Source: Bacillus sp. F19
Lineage (GTDB): Bacteria > Bacillota > Bacilli > Bacillales > Bacillaceae
Direction: 5' to 3'
Assembly (NCBI GenBank): GCA_023823795.1
Contig: CP085710.1
Location: 2,940,001 to 3,004,000, forward strand
Length of the DNA: 64,000 nucleotides
The translations under genes and the position numbers were made by a program. This document shows positions 9,038-20,676 of the stretch, one piece after another. Numbering within the stretch: the first letter of the stretch is position 1; each line of letters opens with the position of its first letter. The notes under the pieces are model-generated. The model saw nothing but the letters and a program-made list of their open reading frames with translations. It was not told the origin of the DNA and did no database searches.

Positions 9038-9385
9038 TTATGCGTTCTCTTTTCCAACAAGTCTTACAAGCAAATGTGCCAATTGATGGCGCTGTTCCTG
9101 CTCGCCTGCTTTCCATAGTTCCTGCAGCAATTTTTCTTCTCTATTTCTCGGTTCCTCATTTTCAGCAAGGTAAGCTGCTACCTTTTCTGCTGTTTAGGCT
9201 AATTGCTCTTCATTTAGTCCAAGTTTTTCGCCAAGTGCCACCCTTTTACCCAAATACTGTTTAAAGCTTTCAAAACTCCCCAGAATATCTTCCATCTTTT
9301 CATCAGGAATCGTCGCTATGCGGCATTCAACTTTTTCTGTTTCAAGACTTTCATTTTTATTAATAATATGATTTTGTTCTGACAT
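9038..9385 (-). pseudogene. DUF3243 (YmfJ-like) gene with an in-frame stop
   Basis: The minus strand encodes an acidic protein whose C-terminal 85 residues follow the YmfJ/DUF3243 pattern: SFESFKQYLGKRVALGEKLG, NEEQLA, then a TAA at 9194-9196, then in the same frame TAEKVAAYLAENEEPRNREE, LLQELWKAGEQEQRHQLAHL and LVRLVGKENA. The same frame continues on both sides of the stop, so one nonsense change (or a sequencing error) breaks an otherwise complete gene. It also has an N-terminal extension of about 30 residues that I do not know from YmfJ. GAAGGGA precedes ATG 9385. The family has no established function. Confidence 0.65.
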
Positions 9386-9789: not shown

Positions 9790-9828
9790 AAAAAAAGAGT
9801 GTGCCAAAAGTTAGCCTTTGGCATACTC
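9790..9828 (-). terminator. Terminator of the nine-gene sigma-54 operon
   Basis: On the minus strand GAGTATGCCAAA and TTTGGCACACTC form a 12-base stem with one mismatch and an eight-base loop, followed by eight T residues. It lies 70 bases after the stop of the M20 deacylase, the last operon gene. Confidence 0.85.
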
Positions 9829-9896: not shown

Positions 9897-11111
9897 CTAC
9901 TTTAAAAAGTTAAGAGCAGAAAGTGTGTAGATTTGCACAGTTTCAACGAGCTCATCAATATCTACATATTCATCGGCATGATGGGGTATATGGCGATCAC
10001 CTGCTCCTGTTGTAATGATCGGCACACCTGCAAGATGAAGGAACGTCCCGTCTGTAGCCCCAGGGACCCCATTGTATACGGGTTCTTTACCTGTAACTTC
10101 CTTATAAGCCTGCGCAACAGCCTGTACTACCTCATGATCTTTCGGTGTCTCTGTCCAAGGTCTGTCCTCAATCAGTTCAAGTGTCGCTTTGAAATGCGGA
10201 TCTTCTTTACCAAGCCGTTCAATAATGACTTCTATTTCCTTTCTCAATTGATGATGCTCCTGCCCAGGAACCGTCCGAATATCAAGTGTAGTCATACATT
10301 GTGCAGGAACTACATTGATTTGCGGTTCTCCCTTAACTGGTGCTTGTATGATAGTTGGTGTAATGCTCGGCCAGCCAAGATACGGATGTTCCCCCATCCG
10401 ATCTTTTTCTCTTTGTTCCAATTGATCCAATTCCACTATTAATTTAGCCATGCGTGTATTGGGATTAATTCCAGTAAGCGGCATCGCACCATGGGCCATT
10501 TTTCCGTACGTTTTAAGTACGATGCGCATCGCCCCTTTTTGTGTAATACAGAGCTGATTCTCCTCAGGTTCACAGATAATGGCTCCATCAACTCCATCTG
10601 CCCAGCCTTTTTTAATAAAATCTTTAATTCCGATCATCATTCCCTCTTCGTCGCAGGGGATACAAAGGATCATTTTCCCTTTAAAGGCAGCGCCTGATTT
10701 TTTTATAGAATGAACAGCAGAAATGGCAGCAGCAAGGTTCCCTTTCGTATCACAAGAACCTCTTCCATAAATTCTGCCATTACTGACTTCTCCGCCAAAA
10801 GGATCATATGTCCATGAATCAATATCTCCTTCAGTTACAACATCTGTATGCCCTTCAAATAAAAGAGTTTTTCCTGGGAGACCAGAGTCATAAACTGCAA
10901 TAACATTTGGCCGTCCTGGCACCACTTCTTCATAATAAACATCTAATCCGATGTTCTTAAGGTATTCAACTATGAAACGGGCAACCTTTTCTTCGTTTCC
11001 ACCCTCGACATTTGGACGATAGACACTTTGTATACGAATAAGACTCCTTGTCAGTTCAATCACTTCTTTTTTATCAATAAAAGGAAGAATAGATTCTATT
11101 GCTGCTGTCAT
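9897..11111 (-). CDS. M20-family N-acyl amino acid deacylase (ArgE/DapE-like)
   Basis: A 404-residue metallopeptidase-fold amidohydrolase. The metal ligands can be placed at His88 (FEGHTDVV), Asp121 (GSCDTKGN), Glu156 next to the catalytic Glu155 (CDEEGMM) and a His near the C-terminus in RHIPHHADE. Such enzymes remove acyl groups from N-acyl amino acids. It is the last gene of the operon, 15 bases after the P1-family hydrolase, with AAAGGACG before ATG 11111. Pantothenate is itself an N-acyl beta-alanine, so this is one of two candidates for the pantothenate-splitting step in the proposed pathway; a general acylamino acid deacylase is the conservative reading. Confidence 0.85.
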   Translation of the reverse strand: MTAAIESILPFIDKKEVIELTRSLIRIQSVYRPNVEGGNEEKVARFIVEYLKNIGLDVYYEEVVPGRPNVIAVYDSGLPGKTLLFEGHTDVVTEGDIDSWTYDPFGGEVSNGRIYGRGSCDTKGNLAAAISAVHSIKKSGAAFKGKMILCIPCDEEGMMIGIKDFIKKGWADGVDGAIICEPEENQLCITQKGAMRIVLKTYGKMAHGAMPLTGINPNTRMAKLIVELDQLEQREKDRMGEHPYLGWPSITPTIIQAPVKGEPQINVVPAQCMTTLDIRTVPGQEHHQLRKEIEVIIERLGKEDPHFKATLELIEDRPWTETPKDHEVVQAVAQAYKEVTGKEPVYNGVPGATDGTFLHLAGVPIITTGAGDRHIPHHADEYVDIDELVETVQIYTLSALNFLK

Positions 11112-11126
11112 TGCAATCGTCCTTTC

Positions 11127-12098
11127 TTAATGAGATTCATTGATTTCTTTACTTGATGGAAAGCCTTCAATTCCTTCAGCATTCTGAACAGCGAGGATGA
11201 CTGCTTCTGCCAAAATGTCAGCAGCAATCGTCCCAATCAGGTCAACTGATGCACTCATATCGCCTGTACTCAAAGAAAAGATCGTGTCTCCATCAAACAT
11301 CGTATGCACAGGATAGATGGTTCTAGCTAATCCATTTTGTGCCATGGACGCTACCTTAGAGGCCTGTGATTTAGTTAACTTCGCATTGCAAGCAACAACC
11401 CCTATTGTTGTATTTGTACCAGGCTTTAAGGGGATGGCAGGCTGTTCTAGCATCCATTCTAAACTGCTCTTTATTTTCCCCTGATCATCTCTGGCACCGG
11501 CAATGACTTCTCCCGTTTCGGGATTTCGAATTTCCCCCATCGCATTTACTGCAACAATGGCTCCTACAACTAAACCATTTGGAAAAACTTTAGACGCGGA
11601 ACCTAGCCCGCCTTTCATTGCCCGATGGTGGCCAGCCACTTTTCCAACCGTAGCCCCGCAACCCGCTCCTGAATTACCTAATGGAAAATATCCTCTTTTG
11701 GCGTTTAATGCCGCCTTATAACCCATTTTCTGATCCGGACGAACAGAAGGGTCCCCTACAGGCATATCAAACAGGACAGCTGACGGCACAATCGGAACCA
11801 CTCCTGCACCTACATCCAGTCCAATACCTTTCTTTTCCAAAAACTGCATAACACCACTTGCTGCATCAAGACCATAGGCACTTCCTCCCGCCAGACAGAT
11901 ACTGTGAACCCGGTCTACAAGGTTCACTGGATTAAGTAAATCTGTTTCCCTTGTTCCAGGAGCTGAACCTCTAACATCTACACCGCATACAGCACCTTTC
12001 TCCAACAATAAAACGGTACAGCCCGTATAACCTAAATTATCCTCTTCATTCCCGACTTTAACGCCAGGAACGTCTGTTATGTTATGAAACCGTTCCAC
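11127..12098 (-). CDS. P1-family N-terminal nucleophile amidohydrolase (DmpA/NylC-like)
   Basis: 323 residues of the DmpA/BapA/NylC family (often annotated L-aminopeptidase/D-esterase). The precursor is expected to cleave itself between Asn229 and Thr230 in the motif GTNTTIGVV, freeing Thr230 as the nucleophile, as in the nylon-oligomer hydrolase NylC. The family loop GGSAYGLDAASGV and GNSGAGCGATVGK are present. Known members cut beta-alanyl peptides, D-amino acid amides and omega-amino acid amides, so an amide containing beta-alanine is a sensible substrate. The start is GTG, sharing one base with the stop of the ECF S-component (TAGTG), so translation is coupled. It lacks a signal peptide and is cytoplasmic. 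Confidence 0.87.
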   Translation of the reverse strand: MERFHNITDVPGVKVGNEEDNLGYTGCTVLLLEKGAVCGVDVRGSAPGTRETDLLNPVNLVDRVHSICLAGGSAYGLDAASGVMQFLEKKGIGLDVGAGVVPIVPSAVLFDMPVGDPSVRPDQKMGYKAALNAKRGYFPLGNSGAGCGATVGKVAGHHRAMKGGLGSASKVFPNGLVVGAIVAVNAMGEIRNPETGEVIAGARDDQGKIKSSLEWMLEQPAIPLKPGTNTTIGVVACNAKLTKSQASKVASMAQNGLARTIYPVHTMFDGDTIFSLSTGDMSASVDLIGTIAADILAEAVILAVQNAEGIEGFPSSKEINESH

Positions 12099-12655
12099 TA
12101 CAATTCTCCAGAAATCTTTGATTTCTTGTTTCCGCTATGGTCAAGCTTTTTCCATGCAACAACCACTGCCAGGGTAATGATCACGGAAACAATTGCTTCC
12201 GGTATTCCGTTTGTTACAGCAATCGTAACCGCGACACCTGGAGCAATATATCCTCTAATGACCGCCATTGTCAAAACAAGCAGCGTATTTGTAAACGCTC
12301 CTACAAATCCCGCCACCCCAATAGCGGCATACTCGTTGACTCTCTTCAAGGAAATGTAAGATAAATAGGCTGTTACTCCAATAAATAATCGCGGCAGTAT
12401 AGCAACCAGCGGGTCTTTAAATAACGGAATAGTTGCATCAAGGAACGAAGACACACCGAAGATCAGTCCAATGACCAGTCCAACAAACGGGCCTTGCATG
12501 ACTCCTCCAATGATTGCCGGGACATGCATGATGGTAGCGTTCCCTGCTGCAGTAGGAACAGGAATAAAACCTAATCGGGTGACACCAAGCAAAATAGCTA
12601 CTGCTCCTAATACTCCAGCAATGACAATCTTTCTAGTGGTTAGACCTTTTTCCAT
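12098..12655 (-). CDS. ECF transporter substrate-binding S-component
   Basis: A 185-residue integral membrane protein with about six hydrophobic segments. It has the S-component pattern with an N-terminal LTTRKIVIAGVLGAVAI, followed by a conserved core (LGFIPVPTAAGNATIMHVPA, GGVMQGPFVGLVIGLIFGVS, DPLVAILPRLFIGV) that I associate with pantothenate/folate-type S-components, though I cannot fix the vitamin from sequence alone. GGAGGG precedes ATG 12655. It lies with its own EcfT, EcfA1 and EcfA2 genes, so this is a dedicated (group I) ECF importer. Genes on both sides encode enzymes that would open an amide and oxidise the product, which suggests uptake of the operon's substrate. Confidence 0.85.
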   Translation of the reverse strand: MEKGLTTRKIVIAGVLGAVAILLGVTRLGFIPVPTAAGNATIMHVPAIIGGVMQGPFVGLVIGLIFGVSSFLDATIPLFKDPLVAILPRLFIGVTAYLSYISLKRVNEYAAIGVAGFVGAFTNTLLVLTMAVIRGYIAPGVAVTIAVTNGIPEAIVSVIITLAVVVAWKKLDHSGNKKSKISGEL

Positions 12656-12714
12656 TCGATTACCCTCCTTATTTTTTTCAGACTGATAGAATGGTATTGC
12701 ATTTTTAATAAAAT

Positions 12715-13560
12715 CTAATAGGGAAATGGAAATGCCAATAATAGAATAGTAAACAGGATACAGAAAAGAAGTGCACTATAATCCCTGGTTTGAGCTTTAT
12801 ACTTTGTGTAAATTGACCGTTCACTCCCTGGGGTATAGCATCTGGATTCCATAGCAAGCACTAAATCTTCAGCCCTCGCCATCGCAACATTGAATAATGG
12901 AATGATAATCGGAAATACATCCTTGGTTCGCTGGATAATTCTCCACCATGCACCTGTGCCGAATTCTGCCCCTCTTGAGGCTTGGGCTTTCATCATTTTT
13001 TCCATTTCCATTGCAAATGTAGGAACAAATCGAATCGCAATCGTAATGATTAAAGCAAATTCATGAACCGGAAACTTTACATGCTTCAAAGGTCTTAAAA
13101 GACTTTCAATCCCATGTGTAATTTGTGTGGTCGAAGTGCTTAACGTTAATACACTGCTTAAAAAAATGATTTCAATAAATCGAAGGGCTGAAACGATTAC
13201 CAGACGAATGCTGTCACTTGTTATAAGAATAAATCCATAATCCACAAAAACCGTTCCGCCTGAAGCAATCTCGCTATAGAATAACAGCTGCAATACCGCT
13301 AATATTAAAATGAAAGGTACAGCGGGCTTGACTCCTGACAAACCATAGCTAATCGGAATACGAGACATATAAAATAAATAACATGCAAAAGCAAGCGCGA
13401 TTATGTTTCCACCGTAGCTGTCACAAATAGCCATTGCAATGACAAGGATGGTAAATGCTAAGAGCTTGATGCGAGGATCCATACGATGAATGAGTGAACC
13501 TGTCGGCAAATACTGCCCGATGGTAATATTTCGGGTTAACTCGAATTCAACACTTGCCAT
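12715..13560 (-). CDS. ecfT: ECF transporter transmembrane protein EcfT
   Basis: About 281 residues with five or six membrane segments and the two cytoplasmic coupling helices of EcfT, carrying Ala-Arg-Gly/Ser-type motifs: MMKAQASRGAEFGT and MARAEDLVLAMESRCY. These bind the two ATPases. The ribosome site AGGAGGTGA overlaps the last codons and stop of ecfA2 and points to ATG 13560, eight bases on, rather than the in-frame GTG at 13569. It is part of the nine-gene operon; the usual Bacillus ecf genes sit in the ribosomal protein region, so this would be a second, dedicated copy. Confidence 0.9.
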   Translation of the reverse strand: MASVEFELTRNITIGQYLPTGSLIHRMDPRIKLLAFTILVIAMAICDSYGGNIIALAFACYLFYMSRIPISYGLSGVKPAVPFILILAVLQLLFYSEIASGGTVFVDYGFILITSDSIRLVIVSALRFIEIIFLSSVLTLSTSTTQITHGIESLLRPLKHVKFPVHEFALIITIAIRFVPTFAMEMEKMMKAQASRGAEFGTGAWWRIIQRTKDVFPIIIPLFNVAMARAEDLVLAMESRCYTPGSERSIYTKYKAQTRDYSALLFCILFTILLLAFPFPY

Positions 13561-13565
13561 TTTCC

Positions 13566-14438
13566 TCACCTCCTATTTGACTGAATAACAGAAACCAATT
13601 CTTTTGCTGCAGCCTCTATTTCGTATGCATTAAGATTGACAGTATATCCCCGTTCTTTTAGCTGCGACAGAATCTCCACTGTTTGCGGTGCTCCAATATG
13701 ATGTTTTGCCAGGGTTTCAGAATTACCGAAAATGTTTCCTGGTGTTCCTTCAATCAGATTTCTTCCCTCTGCTAAAACGTAAATTCTATTTGCTAAATAC
13801 GCCACTTCCTCCATGTTGTGAGAGACGAAAATGACTGTCATGTTTTCCTTTTTGTTCAACTGAACGATTTGCTCCAAAAGTTCCTGTCTTGACCTTGGAT
13901 CGAGGCCTGCTGTCGGTTCGTCCAACACTAAAATTTCAGGCTTCAAAGACAGCACTCCGGCCAGAGCGACTTTTCTTTTTTGACCCCCGCTTAAGGCATA
14001 GGCTGCTCGGTCTTTCAGATCTTCAAAGGAAAGACCAACCAATTCCATTGCCCATTTCACACGGTCTCTTACTTCATTTAAAGGAAGTCCCATTTTTAAT
14101 GGTCCATAAGCAATATCATCACCGATCAATTTTTCAAAAATCTGATCCTCTGGATTCTGAAACACAAGGCCTACCTTTCTCCGCAATGCTTTCACATCAA
14201 TTTTTGGATTAGACAAATGCTTTCCGTCCACTATTACATCACCCTGCTGGGGACGCATCAGCCCATTAAAGTGCTGAATTAAAGTCGATTTTCCGGATCC
14301 TGTATGCCCTATAATTGCTATGCATTCCCCCTTTTCAACACGTAAACTGACTCCTGAGAGGGCCTTGTGTTCAAGAGGTGTCTTTTCCATATAGATATGA
14401 TGTAAGTCCTTCACTTCAAGAATGGGAAATTCACTCAA
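13566..14438 (-). CDS. ecfA2: ECF transporter ATPase EcfA2
   Basis: A 290-residue ABC ATPase: Walker A GHTGSGKST, Q-loop FQNPEDQIFE, signature LSGGQKRK, Walker B ILVLDEPTAGLD, switch His in VSHNMEEV. FQNPEDQ and DDIAYGPLKMGL are typical of the EcfA2 half. The start is TTG overlapping the EcfA1 stop by four bases (TTGA). With EcfA1 it forms the ATPase pair that powers uptake through EcfT. Confidence 0.92.
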   Translation of the reverse strand: MSEFPILEVKDLHHIYMEKTPLEHKALSGVSLRVEKGECIAIIGHTGSGKSTLIQHFNGLMRPQQGDVIVDGKHLSNPKIDVKALRRKVGLVFQNPEDQIFEKLIGDDIAYGPLKMGLPLNEVRDRVKWAMELVGLSFEDLKDRAAYALSGGQKRKVALAGVLSLKPEILVLDEPTAGLDPRSRQELLEQIVQLNKKENMTVIFVSHNMEEVAYLANRIYVLAEGRNLIEGTPGNIFGNSETLAKHHIGAPQTVEILSQLKERGYTVNLNAYEIEAAAKELVSVIQSNRR

Positions 14439-15298
14439 CCTGCATACACCCCTCTTTTAGCTGATAAACGGATGACCTCTTGAATGATCTCGTCATTATG
14501 AATCAAATCTGCCTTATATTCATTGTCATATTTATGAATCAGCCTTGCTAATTGGCTGGCTACCGGGACATCGAGCTGCAATCGATGCAGCAGTTCATAC
14601 TGCTGAAAAATTTCTCTTGGTGCACCATCCATTACGATTTGACCTTTTTCAATGACAATAACCCGGCTTGCTTCAGCTACCTCTGACATATGGTGGGTTA
14701 CAGTAATGATCGTCATTCCGTCGTTATTAAGCTTGCGGACGACATCCAGTATATCTCTTCTTCCATAAGTGTCCAGCATACTGGTTGCTTCATCCAGGAC
14801 AATGCAATCAGGCTTCATCGCAAGGATACCCGCTATAGCAACCCGCTGCTTTTGGCCTCCTGAGAGATGATGAGGAGGGCGTTTCCGAAATTCACTCATC
14901 CCAACCGCTTCTAATGCAAAATCAATTCTTGCCTTTATTTCTGAAGCAGGTACTCCGATATTCTCCAGCCCAAAGGCCACATCATCTTCAACAATAGTCG
15001 AGACAATCTGGTTATCGGGATGCTGAAAGACCATCCCTACTTTTTGACGGATCTCACGGAGCAGTCCGCCATCTCTGGTATTTAAACCATCCACATAAAT
15101 ATCGCCCAGATGAGGTTTAAGAATTCCGTTAAGATGCTTGGACAGCGTTGATTTTCCAGAGCCATTATGCCCGATTATCGCCACATATTCACCCGGATGT
15201 ACATCAAAGGCAACGTTCTGCAGAACGGGAACAGTCTTTTGGTTATTAATTGTATATTCAAATGAAATTTCATCTATTTGGATGAATGGTTTACTCAT
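14435..15298 (-). CDS. ecfA1: ECF transporter ATPase EcfA1
   Basis: A 287-residue ABC ATPase: Walker A GHNGSGKST, Q-loop FQHPDNQIVS, signature LSGGQKQR, Walker B CIVLDEATSMLD, switch His in VTHHMSEV. The Q-loop FQHPDNQ and the DEATSMLD form are typical of EcfA1. Its ATG overlaps the stop codon of the preceding dehydrogenase by one base (TAATG). It is the fourth gene of the sigma-54 operon. Confidence 0.92.
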   Translation of the reverse strand: MSKPFIQIDEISFEYTINNQKTVPVLQNVAFDVHPGEYVAIIGHNGSGKSTLSKHLNGILKPHLGDIYVDGLNTRDGGLLREIRQKVGMVFQHPDNQIVSTIVEDDVAFGLENIGVPASEIKARIDFALEAVGMSEFRKRPPHHLSGGQKQRVAIAGILAMKPDCIVLDEATSMLDTYGRRDILDVVRKLNNDGMTIITVTHHMSEVAEASRVIVIEKGQIVMDGAPREIFQQYELLHRLQLDVPVASQLARLIHKYDNEYKADLIHNDEIIQEVIRLSAKRGVYAG

Positions 15299-16071
15299 TA
15301 CACTCCCCTTCCCCCGTCAACATTCATGATTTCCCCAGTAACAGCCCTGGCGAGATCAGAAGCTAGATATAGTGCCGCTTGGGCAATATCCTCCGGCTGA
15401 ATTAACGTACCTAAAGGAACACTATCAAGAAAGATTTTCTTTTTATCTTCTTCTACTTTTAGCGAATCGCCAGGTAAAAACCTCTCTAGCATTGGTGTTT
15501 CAGCAGGGCCTGGATTAATGGCATTGACCCGTATTTTAAAAGGAGCCAATTCTAATGCCAATGCCTTGGTTAACATAATCGCTGCTCCTTTAGATGCACA
15601 ATATGCATTTAATCCAGGCCTTGCCCGTATTCCTGCAATCGATGCGATATTTATAATCGATCCTTTTTCCTTTCTTTTCATAATAGGAACAAGATGGCGA
15701 GTGGTTAGAAAAATGGAGTTCAAATTAACCGACATAATTTTATCCCATTCACTCAAGCTCATTTCTTCAATCGGGGTAAAGAATTGCGGAACGCCAGCAC
15801 AATTAATCAGTACATCTATATCTTCAAATTCATTAAATGCCTCTTTGACAAGATTTTGGACACTTTCGTCATCTCCTACATCTGTGTGAACCGTCTTAAC
15901 GTGTCCTATTCGATCTATTTCTTTCGCCGTCTGGTCTGCTGCATCTTTATTTATGTCAGATAGAACCACGTTTGCCCCTTGTGCTGCAAACAATTTGGCT
16001 GCAGCTTTTCCCATACCTGATCCCGCACCTGTAATTATGGCTGTTTTTGCTTCTAACAATCGTGCAGTCAC
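15298..16071 (-). CDS. Short-chain dehydrogenase, candidate pantoate 4-dehydrogenase
   Basis: A 257-residue classical SDR: TGAGSGMGKAAA cofactor loop, Asp after the second strand (VVLSDINKD, which points to NAD), NCAGVP, Ser of IASIAG and catalytic YCASK, ending in MNVDGGRGV. It overlaps the aldehyde dehydrogenase stop by four bases (GTGA). In the operon it would oxidise a hydroxyl to an aldehyde or ketone. If the operon handles pantothenate, its step is pantoate to 4-dehydropantoate (EC 1.1.1.106), which is then a substrate for the aldehyde dehydrogenase next door. By itself the sequence does not give the substrate. Confidence 0.85.
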   Translation of the reverse strand: MTARLLEAKTAIITGAGSGMGKAAAKLFAAQGANVVLSDINKDAADQTAKEIDRIGHVKTVHTDVGDDESVQNLVKEAFNEFEDIDVLINCAGVPQFFTPIEEMSLSEWDKIMSVNLNSIFLTTRHLVPIMKRKEKGSIINIASIAGIRARPGLNAYCASKGAAIMLTKALALELAPFKIRVNAINPGPAETPMLERFLPGDSLKVEEDKKKIFLDSVPLGTLIQPEDIAQAALYLASDLARAVTGEIMNVDGGRGV

Positions 16072-17519
16072 AGGTTCATCACCACCATTCGTTCATCTGT
16101 CATTTCTTGAATCGCATAGTACGGCCCTTCCTTCCCAAGGCCGCTGTTTTTCACTCCCCCATAAGGCATAACGTCATTGCGATAAGTGGATACATCATTA
16201 ATAATGACGCCACCGTATTCCAGAACTTTTGCCGCCCTCATTGCCAGCTGCAAATCACGTGTGAAAATTCCTGCCTGTAAACCATACTCTGATTGATTAG
16301 CCGAATGAAATGCCTCTTCAATATCTTGATAAGGGATGATACAAACGATCGGGGCAAAGACTTCTTTACATACCACCTTCATGGCAGGATTCGTGTCAAC
16401 AAGTACCACTGGATATAAAATCGCCCCTTCCCTCTTTAATGGAAGCAAAGATTGGGCTCCTTGTTCCATGGCTTCTCTCACCCATTCCTCTGATCGAATA
16501 GCGTCTTTTTCACTGATCATCGGGCCCACATCTGTTTCTGTTTTTTCAGGATCGCCGACTATCAGCTGCTGAACATGTGATAAGTAGTTTTCCGTAAACT
16601 CTTTTAATACCGATTGATGGACATATAAGCGCTGTACAGCTATACAGGCTTGTCCAGCATTATGAAAACTTCGGCTAGCTGTCAGTTTTGCAGCAAGATT
16701 GAGATCTGCATCATGATGAACAATATTTGGAGAATTGTTTCCCAGTTCAAGCGCTACAGGCCTCAGTCCGCTTCGTTCTTTAATATGCTTGCCTACTTCA
16801 CCAGAACCCGTAAACGTATACATGGCAATTCGTTCATCTTCCAATAGCCATTCACCCACTTCACTTCCTGCTCCGGTTATGATGTTCACATATCCCTTAG
16901 GAAGACCTGCCTCTTCTAAGAGTTCTACTAGCTGAAAGGTTGCAAGAGGAGTTGAAGTTGCAGGCTTAATAACAATGGTGTTTCCAGCCGCAAGAGCGGG
17001 CGCTATTTTATGGACGCCCAATAATAAAGGATAATTGAATGGGGTAATCACTCCTATGACCCCTTTAGGAACACGAATGGTAAATCCCAGACGGTTATCT
17101 GAGCCTTCTGTCGCCTGAAGAGGAATCATTTCACCTGCGATTCGTTTAGCTTCTTCAGCAGACAAACGAATCGTGTTAATCGTGCGATCCAGTTCCCCTG
17201 TTGCATCTTTGCGTGTTTTTCCAACCTCTCTTACTAATGAAATCTCAAAATCCTCTCGTCTTTGTTCCATTAAATCTGCTGCTTTTGATAGAATATTAGA
17301 TCGTTGATAGGCAGTTAATTTGTCTGATTTAAAGATTTTTTCAGCTGCACTCACGGCTTGATTCACATGTTGTTTTTCCGCTTTAGAGATTGATGCAATC
17401 ACTTCACCTGTGTACTTATGGTAGACAGGAATATGATGGACTGTGTAAATTTGTTCTCCATTAATGTATAAATGGAAGTTTTTATGATTCAGCATGGAAG
17501 TTTGTGTCTCAGTCATCAT
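16068..17519 (-). CDS. Aldehyde dehydrogenase, candidate dehydropantoate dehydrogenase
   Basis: About 483 residues with a full ALDH fold: TPFNYP and KPATSTP in the cofactor site, the catalytic Glu in ALELGNNSPNIV, the catalytic Cys in NAGQACIAVQ, and VFAPIV. ELGNNSP rather than ELGGKSP places it near the lactaldehyde/glyceraldehyde-3-phosphate-type ALDHs. Several ATG codons follow each other; AAGGAG at 17526-17531 favours ATG 17519 (six bases) over 17525. It lies between the decarboxylating dehydrogenase and the SDR. In the proposed pathway it would oxidise 4-dehydropantoate to 3,3-dimethylmalate (EC 1.2.1.33). Confidence 0.87.
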   Translation of the reverse strand: MMTETQTSMLNHKNFHLYINGEQIYTVHHIPVYHKYTGEVIASISKAEKQHVNQAVSAAEKIFKSDKLTAYQRSNILSKAADLMEQRREDFEISLVREVGKTRKDATGELDRTINTIRLSAEEAKRIAGEMIPLQATEGSDNRLGFTIRVPKGVIGVITPFNYPLLLGVHKIAPALAAGNTIVIKPATSTPLATFQLVELLEEAGLPKGYVNIITGAGSEVGEWLLEDERIAMYTFTGSGEVGKHIKERSGLRPVALELGNNSPNIVHHDADLNLAAKLTASRSFHNAGQACIAVQRLYVHQSVLKEFTENYLSHVQQLIVGDPEKTETDVGPMISEKDAIRSEEWVREAMEQGAQSLLPLKREGAILYPVVLVDTNPAMKVVCKEVFAPIVCIIPYQDIEEAFHSANQSEYGLQAGIFTRDLQLAMRAAKVLEYGGVIINDVSTYRNDVMPYGGVKNSGLGKEGPYYAIQEMTDERMVVMNL

Positions 17520-17529
17520 TTTCATCTCC

Positions 17530-18615
17530 TTATATAGAATTCATGCTCATTTTGGTCATTTGCTGGTGAATCGCTTCTCCAAATTCACTTGTCGAATTTT
17601 TACCGCCGAGATCAGGGGTAGACACTTTTTGTTCAAGAAGAACCTCTTCAATAGAAGAAACGATCAAGTCGCCTATATCAGAAAAGCCAAGATGCTCCAT
17701 CATTAAGCTAATACTCCAGATTTGTGCAATAGGATTGGCAATTCCTTTTCCGGCGATGTCAGGTGCAGAACCATGAATCGGTTCGAACATCGACGGATAG
17801 TTTTTTTCCGGATTAATGTTTCCAGAAGGCGCAAGACCAAGGCCACCGACAATGGCTGCGCCCAGATCAGTTAATATATCGCCAAACAGGTTGCTGCCAA
17901 CGACTACATCCAATTCTTCTGGTCTTGTAATAAAGTAAGCAGCCAGTGCATCAATATGATAAATATCAGTCTTGATGTTCGGATGATGCATGCCGATTTC
18001 TCTGACGATTTCATCCCAGAAAGGCATCGAGTGATTTATACCATTCGATTTTGTTGCTGCCGTCAGCCTTCTCTTAGGTCTTTTTTCAGCAAGCGAATAG
18101 GCATATTTGATGACTCTTTCGCTTCCATATCTCGTAAAAACATTATTTTGTACCGCCAGCTCAAAAGGAGTATTCTCGTGAAGGCGCCCTCCCATGTTGG
18201 AGTATTCCCCTTCAGTATTTTCACGGACTACAACAAAATTCAAATCATCATGAGCTTTATACCGGAGGGGACTGTTCAAACCTCTTAATAGTTTAATAGG
18301 CCTCAAATTGATATACTGCTGAAAGGCCCTGCGAATGGGCAAGATCAGTTCCCATACTGAAATGTGATCAGGCACAGTTGGAGCACCAATTGCTCCAAGC
18401 AGAATGACATCGTAATCCCGCAGAATGTCCAAGCCATTTTCCGGCATCATCTTTCCATGTTTTAAGTAGTAATCACAATTCCAATCAAATGTGTCTATTG
18501 AGAAATGAATTCCTCCGTGGATTTCCTCAATTCTCTTTAATGTTTTCAATCCTTCTACCATGACTTCCGGTCCAATTCCATCTCCAGGTATGGCAGCTAT
18601 TGAGAAATGTTGCAA
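17530..18615 (-). CDS. Beta-decarboxylating dehydrogenase (tartrate/D-malate type), candidate dimethylmalate dehydrogenase
   Basis: 361 residues of the isopropylmalate/isocitrate dehydrogenase superfamily, TtuC/DmlA branch: IPGDGIGPEVMVEG at the N-terminus, the substrate Arg residues in the LRPIKLLRG region, VVRENTEGEYSNMGG, the catalytic Tyr/Lys and metal ligands in VVGSNLFGDILTDLGAA, and the NAD loop EPIHGSAPDIAGKG. Known relatives oxidise and decarboxylate D-malate, tartrate or isopropylmalate. 3,3-Dimethylmalate is a close structural analogue, and its decarboxylation to 2-oxoisovalerate (EC 1.1.1.84) would fit the operon. The start is TTG after AGAGGTGAT. It is the first gene after the sigma-54 promoter. 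Confidence 0.87.
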   Translation of the reverse strand: MQHFSIAAIPGDGIGPEVMVEGLKTLKRIEEIHGGIHFSIDTFDWNCDYYLKHGKMMPENGLDILRDYDVILLGAIGAPTVPDHISVWELILPIRRAFQQYINLRPIKLLRGLNSPLRYKAHDDLNFVVVRENTEGEYSNMGGRLHENTPFELAVQNNVFTRYGSERVIKYAYSLAEKRPKRRLTAATKSNGINHSMPFWDEIVREIGMHHPNIKTDIYHIDALAAYFITRPEELDVVVGSNLFGDILTDLGAAIVGGLGLAPSGNINPEKNYPSMFEPIHGSAPDIAGKGIANPIAQIWSISLMMEHLGFSDIGDLIVSSIEEVLLEQKVSTPDLGGKNSTSEFGEAIHQQMTKMSMNSI

Positions 18616-18652
18616 GCTATCACCTCTTTTTGTTCTGTTAATAGATTATTAA

Positions 18653-18668
18653 TGCAAGTTCCATGCCA
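18653..18668 (-). promoter_or_regulatory. Sigma-54 (-24/-12) promoter of the nine-gene operon
   Basis: The minus strand reads TGGCATGGAACTTGCA, matching the sigma-54 consensus TGGCACG-N4-TTGCA with GG and GC at the right spacing. It lies about 40 bases before the first gene of the operon and downstream of an adjacent sigma-54 activator gene. Confidence 0.88.
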
Positions 18669-18741
18669 ATTCTGTTAATTTAAAATATTCTGAATTATAA
18701 AGACGTTATAAGGTATAAAAATTCTGAGCAACTATTATTTA

Positions 18742-18777
18742 TGTTTCATTTTGCATCATGTGTTTCAGATTAAAACA
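18742..18777 (-). promoter_or_regulatory. Candidate upstream activator site
   Basis: An inverted repeat TGTTT-N7-AAACA at 18761-18777 sits right after the activator's stop codon, and a second TGTTTCA at 18742-18748 repeats one half 19 bases away (about two helical turns). The spacing of about 75-110 bases upstream of the -24 element fits binding of an enhancer-binding protein. Confidence 0.45.
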
Positions 18778-20610
18778 CTAAAGCTTATATTCTTTGATTT
18801 TCCGCCAAAGGGTTGATCGATCAATTCCAAGTGATTTTGCTGCTTCTGACTTACTTTCATATTGCTTAAGCGCAACTTGAATTAAATCTTTTTCTTTTCC
18901 TTTAATGGTTGCATTGCCAGCAGGTATGTGGGATTTGTTTATTCTAAGTTTAGGATAAAAAAACGAGGCATCTTTTGCAGATATGACTGAATCTTGTTGA
19001 AGCAAGACAATTCGTTCCAAGACATTTCTTAACTCACGGATATTTCCCGGCCAGTGATACTCTTGTAATACTGAAAAAAAGTCTTCATCAATCTTTTCAA
19101 TTTGTTTGCGATGCTGTTCATTGAATTGCTGGATAAAATGGCGGGTAAGGAGGGGAATATCCGCAAGTCTTGTGCGCAATGGCGGCAAATCAAGTGACAG
19201 CACATTTAAACGATAGTATAAATCATTTCTAAATCGCTTATTTCCAATTTCGGATTCAATGTTTGTATTGGTTGCTGCGATAATACGGACATTCACGGGT
19301 ATAGTACGTTTGCCTCCAATCCTTCGAATTGATCTCTCCTGTAAAACTCTTAATAAGTGCGCCTGAATTTGCAATGGCATTTCACCGATTTCATCCAAAA
19401 ATAAAGTTCCGCCATGCGCCAATTCAAATAGTCCTTGTTTTCCTCCTTTTCTTGCTCCAGTAAAACTTCCTTCTTCATAGCCAAATAGTTCACTCTCCAG
19501 TAAACTTTCAGGAAATGCGGCACAATTAACTGCAACAAAAGGTCCGATTGCTCTGGTGCTTTGTAAATGAATTCCCTGGGCAAATAATTCTTTTCCTGTT
19601 CCAGACTCCCCTGTAATTAATACCGTAGCGTCCGTTTTCGCAAAAACCTTTGCCTGTTCCTTTACTTCACAGATTTTTTTCGCTTCCCCTACAATGTCAT
19701 TAAGCGTATATTTAGCCTCCAGCCCATTCTCATGCAGCTTTTTCCTTAACTTCATTTCCAGCCTTTGCAGGTCTGTAATCTCTTTAAAATTGGATACTGC
19801 TCCTACAACAGTGTTATTAAGAATAACAGGATACCGATTAATCATGAATTGCCGGTCCTGAATTTTGGCTACATCCCCTATTTCCTTCTTACCTGTTTGC
19901 AGAACTCTCAGCATATCTGAATTTGGGATATAATCTGCAATATTTCGGCCAATAACTTCTGCTTCCAAACCCAGAAATACTTTCGCATTATTATTGGTCA
20001 ACGTGATTTTCCCTTGCCGATCAACTGCGATTAATCCATCATGTGCAGAATCTACAATAGCCTGCACTTGATATTTTTCTTTAAACATCTCTTTTGTAAC
20101 ATCGATTAATTGGATGGCCTGACGAATAGCGGAAATAACCGTATCCATTGAAGGCTGAACAAAAAAGAGATGTTCTTTTGCTTGTTGTGCAAATGAAAGG
20201 TTATTTTCCCAAGAAGGTACAAGAATGGTTGTGTTTTTCTTTGCGTTGCCGAAATGAACCTGTTCCCTGCTGCAAATTTCATAACGATTTTGATACTTAA
20301 GATGATTTTCAATGTCTAACCACTTTTTTTCTTCTTCTGAGACCATAATAAGGGGATTTTTATCATTAAGATCATGGTCCTCTATTGTTTTTTCGAAATC
20401 ATTTAAGTGAATGGAAAGTGAAACAATTGGAATGGAAAGTGAGTGAACCTCGTTTACATAAGTTAAGGGCGTAATTAGAACAAATGGGTTCATCATATGA
20501 TCTATAACTGTTTTTTTTGAATGGAAGCAGGAAGGCTTATGACCGTGTTCACTTAAAATCTGAGTGACGATTGCTTCTAGTGATTTATTCAATTTATACA
20601 ATGCGATCAA
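18778..20610 (-). CDS. Sigma-54-dependent transcriptional activator (PAS-AAA-Fis)
   Basis: About 610 residues. An N-terminal region of about 190 residues resembles a PrpR-type sensing domain. A PAS domain follows ([16 protein letters not shown]), then the AAA+ domain with Walker A GESGTGKE, the GAFTGA loop in its normal form ([11 protein letters not shown]), Walker [12 protein letters not shown] and the R-finger region, then a Fis-type helix-turn-helix ending [20 protein letters not shown]. No receiver domain is present, so it is ligand-sensing rather than kinase-controlled. AAAGGAG at 20621-20627 suggests TTG 20610 as start; the frame stays open to an ATG at 20646. It lies next to a perfect sigma-54 promoter and very probably controls the operon at 18615-9897. 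Confidence 0.88.
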
Positions 20611-20676
20611 TTTCTCCACTCTCCTTTCTTTTTTATAATTTATCATATTAATACATAAAAAAAGAGCCCAATTCTC

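Follow-up and report, generated by a model that had tools for sequence, protein, structure and literature searches.

A candidate sigma-54-controlled operon for breaking down vitamin B5 compounds in Bacillota

Pseudomonas degrades pantothenate (vitamin B5) by a route described in the biochemistry of the 1960s–70s, in which pantothenase (EC 3.5.1.22) is followed by EC 1.1.1.106, EC 1.2.1.33 and EC 1.1.1.84, with 2-oxoisovalerate and beta-alanine as products. A 2023 paper (PMC10393543) confirms the pantothenase activity of P. fluorescens and calls the identity of the protein unknown. Our search of the open literature, which takes in a minority of the subscription journals, found no gene assigned to pantothenate degradation; the accessible parts of PMC12570885 and PMC11521937 hold nothing on genes, and that of PMC9426600 carries Goodhue and Snell 1966 as a reference entry with nothing on genes. 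In one of the literature searches, the matches listed dealt mostly with animal pantetheinases. What is new here is the gene set in Bacillota, the pathway itself being already known biochemically.

Nine genes on the minus strand of a 64,000-nucleotide stretch of Bacillus sp. F19 DNA (the window, that is, the whole sequence analysed) form an operon with successive gaps of 4, −4, −1, −4, −4, 59, −1 and 15 bases. They encode, in order, a beta-decarboxylating dehydrogenase (TDH/DmlA-like, hereafter TDH; 17530–18615), an aldehyde dehydrogenase (ALDH; 16068–17525), an SDR dehydrogenase (15298–16071), the ATPases EcfA1 (14435–15298; TIGR04520, 371.2 bits against a cut-off of 315) and EcfA2 (13566–14438; TIGR04521, 353.1 bits against 330), the transmembrane coupling protein EcfT (12715–13569; PF02361), an S-component (12098–12655; PF12822), a P1/S58 N-terminal-nucleophile amidohydrolase (P1; 11127–12098) and an M20 ArgE/DapE-type metallo-amidohydrolase (M20; 9897–11111). 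A consensus scan, the only source for this feature, places a terminator-like hairpin 3′ of M20 (9802–9823, minus strand). Coordinates, strand, gaps and Pfam/NCBIfam families all agree with the tight packing and the gene classes listed in a preliminary description of this DNA, which also held that each reaction of pantothenate degradation has one matching enzyme class in the cluster; all four reactions are indeed matched in the operon by a gene of the fitting class. Whereas the Pseudomonas pathway is known as activities, here it would be a set of genes accompanied by an importer, a regulator and a second hydrolase. The GC content of the operon (41–44%) is higher than in the sequence adjoining it, yet such values are nothing out of the ordinary farther off in the window, and it is thus no proof of transfer.

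We consider it highly probable that this operon is inducible and serves to break down vitamin B5 compounds, from import through oxidation to 2-oxoisovalerate. Gene content, conservation, promoter, relationship to PanT and genomic linkages are observed, and from these we infer every reaction and both hydrolase assignments. The substrate would be sensed by a sigma-54 activator that turns on a −24/−12 promoter, and pantothenate, perhaps also pantetheine, would enter through the dedicated ECF transporter with its PanT-type S-component. P1 would cut pantetheine to pantothenate and cysteamine, and M20, as the candidate pantothenase, would release pantoate and beta-alanine. The SDR would then oxidise pantoate at its C4 alcohol, giving the aldehyde (pantoate 4-dehydrogenase, EC 1.1.1.106), the ALDH would take this 4-dehydropantoate to 3,3-dimethylmalate (EC 1.2.1.33), and TDH would act as 3,3-dimethylmalate dehydrogenase (EC 1.1.1.84), yielding by oxidative decarboxylation 2-oxoisovalerate, which would pass to branched-chain metabolism. 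Beta-alanine would be handled by a class III transaminase and MmsA. If this is true, culturable Bacillota supply gene candidates for four enzyme activities together, consumers of vitamin B5 become recognisable from their genomes, and M20, its AS-family amidase replacement and P1 are concrete candidates for assay.

We compared the operon with 80 related loci, taken from 105 relatives. The S-component occurs together with both P1 and M20 in 39 of the 80, which argues that the operon is not a chance assembly. A profile built from 40 S-component sequences (39 of the 80 loci and the window) matched only 4rfs and 6zg3 in the copy of the PDB searched, even at an E value of 10, and both are PanT; the similarity is weak, at 41.4 and 28.6 bits. 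PMC7755397 names W64, R95 and N131 (L. brevis numbers) as substrate-binding residues of PanT, with mutation marking R95 and N131 as important. Arg89 and Asn123 of the S-component align with R95 and N131 and are invariant in the 40 sequences, whereas the position of Trp64 is an invariant Phe66, which counts against our reading. The locus further differs from the ECF-PanT transporters in carrying EcfA1-A2-T in the same operon and in its catabolic-type setting. By this likeness, the S-component is very probably PanT-type, for pantothenate and/or pantetheine, so that the earlier guess of a vitamin-type importer for pantothenate now has solved relatives that are exclusively PanT and two conserved binding residues behind it. 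The pantothenate assignment gains further from linkage in some relatives to CoaX/CoaBC, PanB/PanE and beta-alanine-type genes and from the presence of the S-component where PanC is lost in Chloroflexota, as set out below.

The operon also bears the marks of the sigma-54 control proposed for it. A −24/−12 element, TTGGCATGGAACTTGCAT, that is, TTGGCATG-N4-TTGCAT, lies 5′ of the first gene (18652–18669, minus strand) and is of the textbook type; the end previously given for the operon, 18668, falls inside it. Directly upstream is a gene for a sigma-54 activator (EBP; 18778–20646, minus strand) with PAS, AAA+ (PF00158) and Fis-type HTH domains and an N-terminus with no Pfam match, and the host genome has one match for sigma-54 itself. 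Relatives of the EBP (49–81%) are present in 23 of the 80 related loci, and 20 of these 23 carry the element 5′ of the first operon gene, against one match in a base-shuffled control of the same 1.48 Mb on one strand. Detection of the substrate and activation of the operon are the likely tasks of the EBP. Its binding site may be TGATGCAAAATGAAACA (18742–18758, minus strand), a tentative candidate chosen by visual inspection together with a simple count of dyads; TGTTGCA-N3-TGCAACA-type dyads resembling it occur in some relatives, and no exact dyad is shared by more than 3 of 12 sequences. Counting against our reading, five Neobacillus operons have a GntR gene in place of the activator.

The first dehydrogenase scores as a tartrate dehydrogenase (NCBIfam TIGR02089, 526.8 bits against a cut-off of 470.4), which counts against the pantothenate reading, and aligns over its full length with tartrate dehydrogenase 3flk, a likeness to the D-malate/tartrate enzymes DmlA and TtuC. 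It differs from them in a loop (VWELILPIR in the window), which as [VI]W[ED]LI[LM]PIR is found in all 25 operon TDH enzymes and in none of eight reference D-malate/tartrate-type enzymes, and in falling with the other operon TDHs on a separate branch, whose modest support (88/67; L124, a short match, was left out of the tree) likewise weighs against our reading. Two further TDHs outside the operon type, in L227 and L228, have the loop LWGLL. Tartrate or D-malate use as the purpose of the operon was rejected on the loop, the branch and the neighbouring genes. In 21 of the 25 TDH loci, TDH is accompanied by an SDR and by an ALDH belonging to one or the other of two subtypes (about 30% alike), the second subtype replacing the operon ALDH in some relatives. 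Genes automatically named tartrate dehydrogenase and DapE/ArgE-type deacylase in such operons are probably misnamed.

It is very unlikely, in our judgement, that the operon instead degrades another hydroxy-acid amide, or acids of the tartrate/D-malate type, with the link to pantothenate being incidental. The TIGR02089 score would fit this, as would Brevibacillus, where all 11 genomes that have only ECF-P1-M20 in one cluster carry TDH-ALDH-SDR elsewhere, accompanied by a TRAP transporter in 9 genomes and an FAD oxidase in 10, as expected for a general hydroxy acid. This division into a hydrolysis and an oxidation cluster speaks for our preferred reading, and the result that 0 of the 11 oxidation clusters have a strict −24/−12 match 5′ of TDH speaks against it. 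Set against it are the PanT-only relatives of the S-component, the loop of the operon TDHs, distinct from that of the references and of L227 and L228, and the linkage to PanB, PanE, CoaX, CoaBC and beta-alanine-type genes. Genes for MmsA and a class III transaminase, whose substrate we infer to be of the beta-alanine type, adjoin the operon in three of the 80 loci (L099, L114 and L153) and in L035, all Bacillota. The copies in the present genome are unlinked to the operon and lie near an amidohydrolase-family gene that, as judged from its sequence, may be a dihydropyrimidinase, in what would be a pyrimidine-type cluster. Similarly improbable is that the operon serves salvage of vitamin B5 for CoA, by import and trimming of pantetheine or similar amides, rather than carbon catabolism. 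Part of the S-component family does look like plain salvage, as 22 of the 80 loci hold none of P1, M20 and AS amidase while P1 is the sole hydrolase in 10 (some of these contigs are short), but PanB and PanC are present in all nine Bacillota genomes tested, so the vitamin should not be needed there, and salvage misfits the three dehydrogenases, the beta-alanine-type neighbours and the sigma-54 switch. For much of the Chloroflexota branch, salvage likely holds. Among 101 genomes of that phylum, the S-component is present in 9 of 16 without PanC versus 5 of 85 with it (p = 7.6e-6, uncorrected for kinship; 3.1e-5 without the chosen centre), and it can adjoin CoaX-CoaBC, with the gene orders EcfT-S-CoaX-CoaBC-P1 in L172 and S-CoaX-CoaBC-P1 in L171. 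PanE and PanB are divergent from ECF-M20-P1-S in L146, L158, L160 and L176, the first of which also has CoaX-CoaBC; the neighbouring CoaX, CoaBC, PanB and PanE copies scanned score above their profile cut-offs. None of six Chloroflexota genomes tested, whose completeness is not stated, has a PanC match, so destroying pantothenate makes little sense in them; an archaeal phosphopantothenate synthetase as a substitute was found in 0 of 7 genomes. M20 is nevertheless present in four of the six, which counts against the catabolic reading.

The two hydrolases had been put forward as two candidates for the pantothenase step. M20 keeps that role here, and the part that gives way is the choice between them, as the two probably act in successive steps, with the ThnT-like P1 cutting pantetheine to pantothenate and M20, or an AS amidase, acting as pantothenase, to judge from sequence and gene context. 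P1 (PF03576) is a distant relative of both ThnT and nylon hydrolase, with scores of 172–174 bits for the former and 246 bits for a nylon-66 hydrolase. Its self-cleavage residue Thr230 is kept in 50 of 50 aligned sequences and Asn229 in 48 of 50 (L104, L106, L120, L151 and L176, 5 of 54 P1-bearing loci, were left out), and the ThnT position opposite this Asn-Thr site in the alignment is occupied by Ala in chain 4ihe; what sets P1 apart from ThnT and the DmpA/P1 (S58) family is its vitamin-type operon. In M20, His88, Asp90, Asp121, Glu155, Glu156, Glu181 and His377, which we presume to have their usual functional roles, are kept in 43 of 43 aligned sequences (L120 left out). The succession is suggested by the absence of P1 from 4 of the 25 TDH loci (L111, L147, L150 and L154), whereas all 25 have M20 (20) or, replacing it, an AS amidase (5), and by the position of P1 after CoaX-CoaBC in L171 and L172, both without a PanC match, where the vitamin may not be remade and its cleavage would be wasteful. 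That the pathway runs without a pantetheine step, with P1 and M20 both acting on pantothenate, or with P1 as pantothenase and M20 cutting another pantoyl amide, is a realistic minority possibility. The joint occurrence of P1 and M20 speaks for it, as do the varied amides cut by P1-related enzymes, the nearest solved relative of P1 being nylon hydrolase, and the waste argument would equally speak against M20 in L146, L158, L160 and L176. On the other side, besides the four TDH loci without P1 and besides L171 and L172, PMC6097109 has the pantetheinyl group as the target of ThnT, if only in the carbapenem-bound form.

Beyond successive hydrolysis in the window, one could imagine a widespread, overlooked regulon that eats vitamin B5 and its CoA-derived relative pantetheine, made of an import/hydrolysis module and a pantoate-oxidation module, which some Bacillota have joined together and Brevibacillus keeps apart. 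In the Chloroflexota without PanC, the pantoate branch would be PanE and PanB run backwards, biosynthetic enzymes serving breakdown. We offer this wider picture tentatively and think it rather unlikely.

Single genes of the set also occur in other surroundings. P1 was rejected as a marker of the operon, being common as a lone gene in Bacillales: it matches at an E value of 1e-60 in 44 of 397 genomes of the order, only 5 of which have an S-component more than 70% alike, and the operon is absent from all 20 lone-P1 contexts inspected, which counts against our reading. So do AS amidases 61–70% alike in unrelated neighbourhoods on four annotated proteobacterial plasmid regions, where TDH, PanB or PanE was not found beside them (a fifth such region carries no annotation); a plasmid search for the gene set, started from TDH, M20 and the AS amidase, brought no gain. 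A Thermus M20 (44%) adjoins PucR, transaminase and SDR genes.

The nine tightly packed genes, and the families assigned to them, in the preliminary description are borne out in full. They occupy 9897–18615 on the minus strand of the window, closely spaced, and encode a tartrate dehydrogenase-like enzyme (TDH; Iso_dh), an aldehyde dehydrogenase (ALDH; Aldedh), an SDR, two ECF ATPases, EcfT, an S-component (PF12822), a peptidase S58 (P1 in MEROPS naming) and an M20 hydrolase. The sigma-54 control proposed for them is likewise supported by an element at 18669–18652, an activator gene at 18778–20646 and one sigma-54 match in the whole genome. An S-alignment scan of named genomes yielded 105 relatives, of which we kept 80 as comparison loci (Fictibacillus, Pseudalkalibacillus, Brevibacillus, Neobacillus, Alicyclobacillus, Sporolactobacillus, Chloroflexota and others); 54 carry P1, 43 M20 and 25 TDH. 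The sigma-54 element precedes the operon's first gene in 20 of the 23 activator-bearing loci and at the same place in two where the activator was not counted (L104 and L109), and was found upstream of that gene in none of the remaining 55. A TGTTGCA-N3-TGCAACA-like dyad upstream, judged by eye, may tentatively be a candidate activator site. Beyond the operon, short minus-strand frames at 9194–9385 and 9038–9130 resemble one small gene split by an in-frame stop.

We propose that this operon imports pantothenate or pantetheine and breaks them down through pantoate to 2-oxoisovalerate, with beta-alanine as the other product. Pantothenate degradation is already known as biochemistry; the accessible text of PMC10393543 describes the pantothenase protein as unidentified, and the accessible portions of the open-access literature yielded no gene assignment for these enzymes or this pathway. 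The gene set would make the old question of pantothenate-degrading genes testable at once.

Four grounds point to pantothenate: the S-component profile, linkage to CoaX, CoaBC, PanB and PanE, enrichment with PanC loss, and beta-alanine-type neighbours. Searched against a copy of the PDB, a profile of 40 S-components matched only two structures of the pantothenate S-component PanT, even at E = 10. Mutation shows PanT W64, R95 and N131 (L. brevis numbering) to be important for binding, according to the accessible text of PMC7755397; in the printed alignment R95 corresponds to Arg89 and N131 to Asn123, both invariant in the 40 sequences, and W64 aligns with an invariant Phe66. S-component, CoaX (pantothenate kinase), CoaBC and P1 follow one another on the same strand in L171 and L172, and PanE and PanB, of pantothenate synthesis, face the cluster in L146, L158, L160 and L176, the first also with CoaX–CoaBC. 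PanB and PanE of L146 and L160, CoaX of L146 and L172 and CoaBC of L146 and L171 score above curated cut-offs, the remaining copies being identified by similarity. Among 101 Chloroflexota genomes, 16 lack the synthesis enzyme PanC and 14 have the S-component, including 9 without PanC (p = 7.6 × 10−6, or 3.1 × 10−5 without the chosen centre, uncorrected for kinship and completeness), which is what a pantothenate importer rescuing auxotrophs should look like. An HpaX-like MFS transporter gene, whose product may import pantoate or pantothenate, lies inside or after the operon in eight loci (L098–L102, L111, L150 and L154).

MmsA and a class III transaminase form the usual beta-alanine route. Their genes lie next to the operon in L099, L114 and L153 (3/80 loci) and also in L035; MmsA of L103 was left out of the count, its cluster being inositol-like by eye. 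In Bacillus sp. F19 itself, G000:C1:1843288–1851467 (L191:289–8468) holds in a row an amidohydrolase, a membrane protein, a PucR-like regulator, MmsA and a class III transaminase. We read the amidohydrolase as a dihydropyrimidinase, with which beta-alanine as the MmsA/transaminase substrate fits, and the cluster likely serves pyrimidine and beta-alanine breakdown.

NCBIfam names the operon TDH tartrate dehydrogenase, but 25 operon enzymes (window plus 24 loci) split in a tree, with modest branch support (88/67), from nine references, E. coli DmlA among them. All 25 carry the loop [VI]W[ED]LI[LM]PIR, compared with none of eight tartrate/D-malate-type references, where LWGSL is commonest; in this enzyme family, as in LeuB, the loop contacts the side chain of the substrate. 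Other TDH matches in Bacillus sp. F19 are a 34% relative and a further frame resembling isocitrate dehydrogenase. On Novosphingobium plasmid pNL1, an annotated tartrate dehydrogenase 52.6% alike is flanked by two annotated 2-dehydropantoate 2-reductase genes (L199).

PanB and PanC are present in all nine Bacillota genomes tested, which should therefore make pantothenate themselves; an inducible promoter, together with three enzymes for oxidation, points to use of the substrate as a carbon or nitrogen source. SDR and ALDH accompany TDH in 21 of 25 TDH loci, and the ALDHs form two subtypes only roughly 30% alike, one in 12 loci and the other in 9, the pattern that conservation of the reaction rather than of the gene would predict. 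Neither was counted in L118 (a metagenome assembly), L124 (where TDH appears split) or L147, and L154 lacks ALDH. Brevibacillus genomes whose cluster holds only ECF, P1 and M20 carry TDH–ALDH–SDR elsewhere (11/11, all with the operon-type loop), and hydrolysis and oxidation thus form separable modules, which seem to have one metabolite in common, as pantoate would be. These oxidative clusters (L216–L226) include an FAD-linked oxidase in 10 of 11 and, in 9, a DctPQM TRAP transporter, a possible pantoate importer. An activator 51–54% alike accompanies the TDH cluster in 7 of the 11 and a more distant one (40–46%) in all, the ECF cluster having the activator in 6; no strict −24/−12 match precedes the TDH genes in these genomes. 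In the five other genomes searched, three have no TDH at E = 1 × 10−90, and the TDH of the remaining two carries an LWGLL loop.

Both hydrolases had been put forward as pantothenase. With moderate confidence we retain M20 for pantothenate, in all TDH loci save those with an AS amidase, and reassign P1 to pantetheine, on the basis of genomic context and kinship to ThnT. Four TDH loci lack P1 (L111, L147, L150 and L154; S–M20 match gap below 200 bases), whereas all 25 have M20 (20 loci) or an AS amidase (five). TDH or PanB–PanE occurs in 0/10 P1-only loci versus 29/48 with M20 or AS amidase, a comparison weakened by contig ends and kinship. P1 also comes after CoaX–CoaBC in two genomes where PanC had no match, and its relative ThnT cuts a pantetheinyl group, in carbapenem-bound form, during thienamycin synthesis, as the accessible text of PMC6097109 has it. 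The AS amidase loci (L121, L122, L124, L127 and L129) have a GntR gene and no counted activator; close relatives of these amidases occur outside any pantoate context, so it is position that assigns them here. Pantothenase of P. fluorescens works through an acyl-enzyme, a better fit for an AS amidase than for M20. On a Thermus thermophilus plasmid (L186), genes for a PucR regulator, a class III transaminase, an SDR and an ABC transporter adjoin that of an M20 44% alike, a set that may serve a different amide pathway.

Pantothenate breakdown fits less well in Chloroflexota. Six genomes all have PanB and none a PanC match, nor was an archaeal PanC replacement found in them; despite this, four have M20 with PanE and PanB. 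In these four (L146, L158, L160 and L176) PanB and PanE lie beside a PanT-type ECF transporter, M20 and P1. Either PanE and PanB run in reverse to dispose of pantoate, or a pantothenate synthetase of a new type is at work, or M20 has another role. Across the 80 loci, 22 have the S-component without a hydrolase.

In a set of 397 genomes from the order, an S-component more than 70% alike occurs in Bacillus sp. F19 and four others; it is absent from the listed genomes of the same genus (4) and the same family (11). The nearest relatives of the window TDH in the tree are from Fictibacillaceae, and Fictibacillus solisalsi (G306) belongs to a different family from Bacillus sp. F19; the operon and its activator (9897–20646) were therefore probably acquired horizontally.
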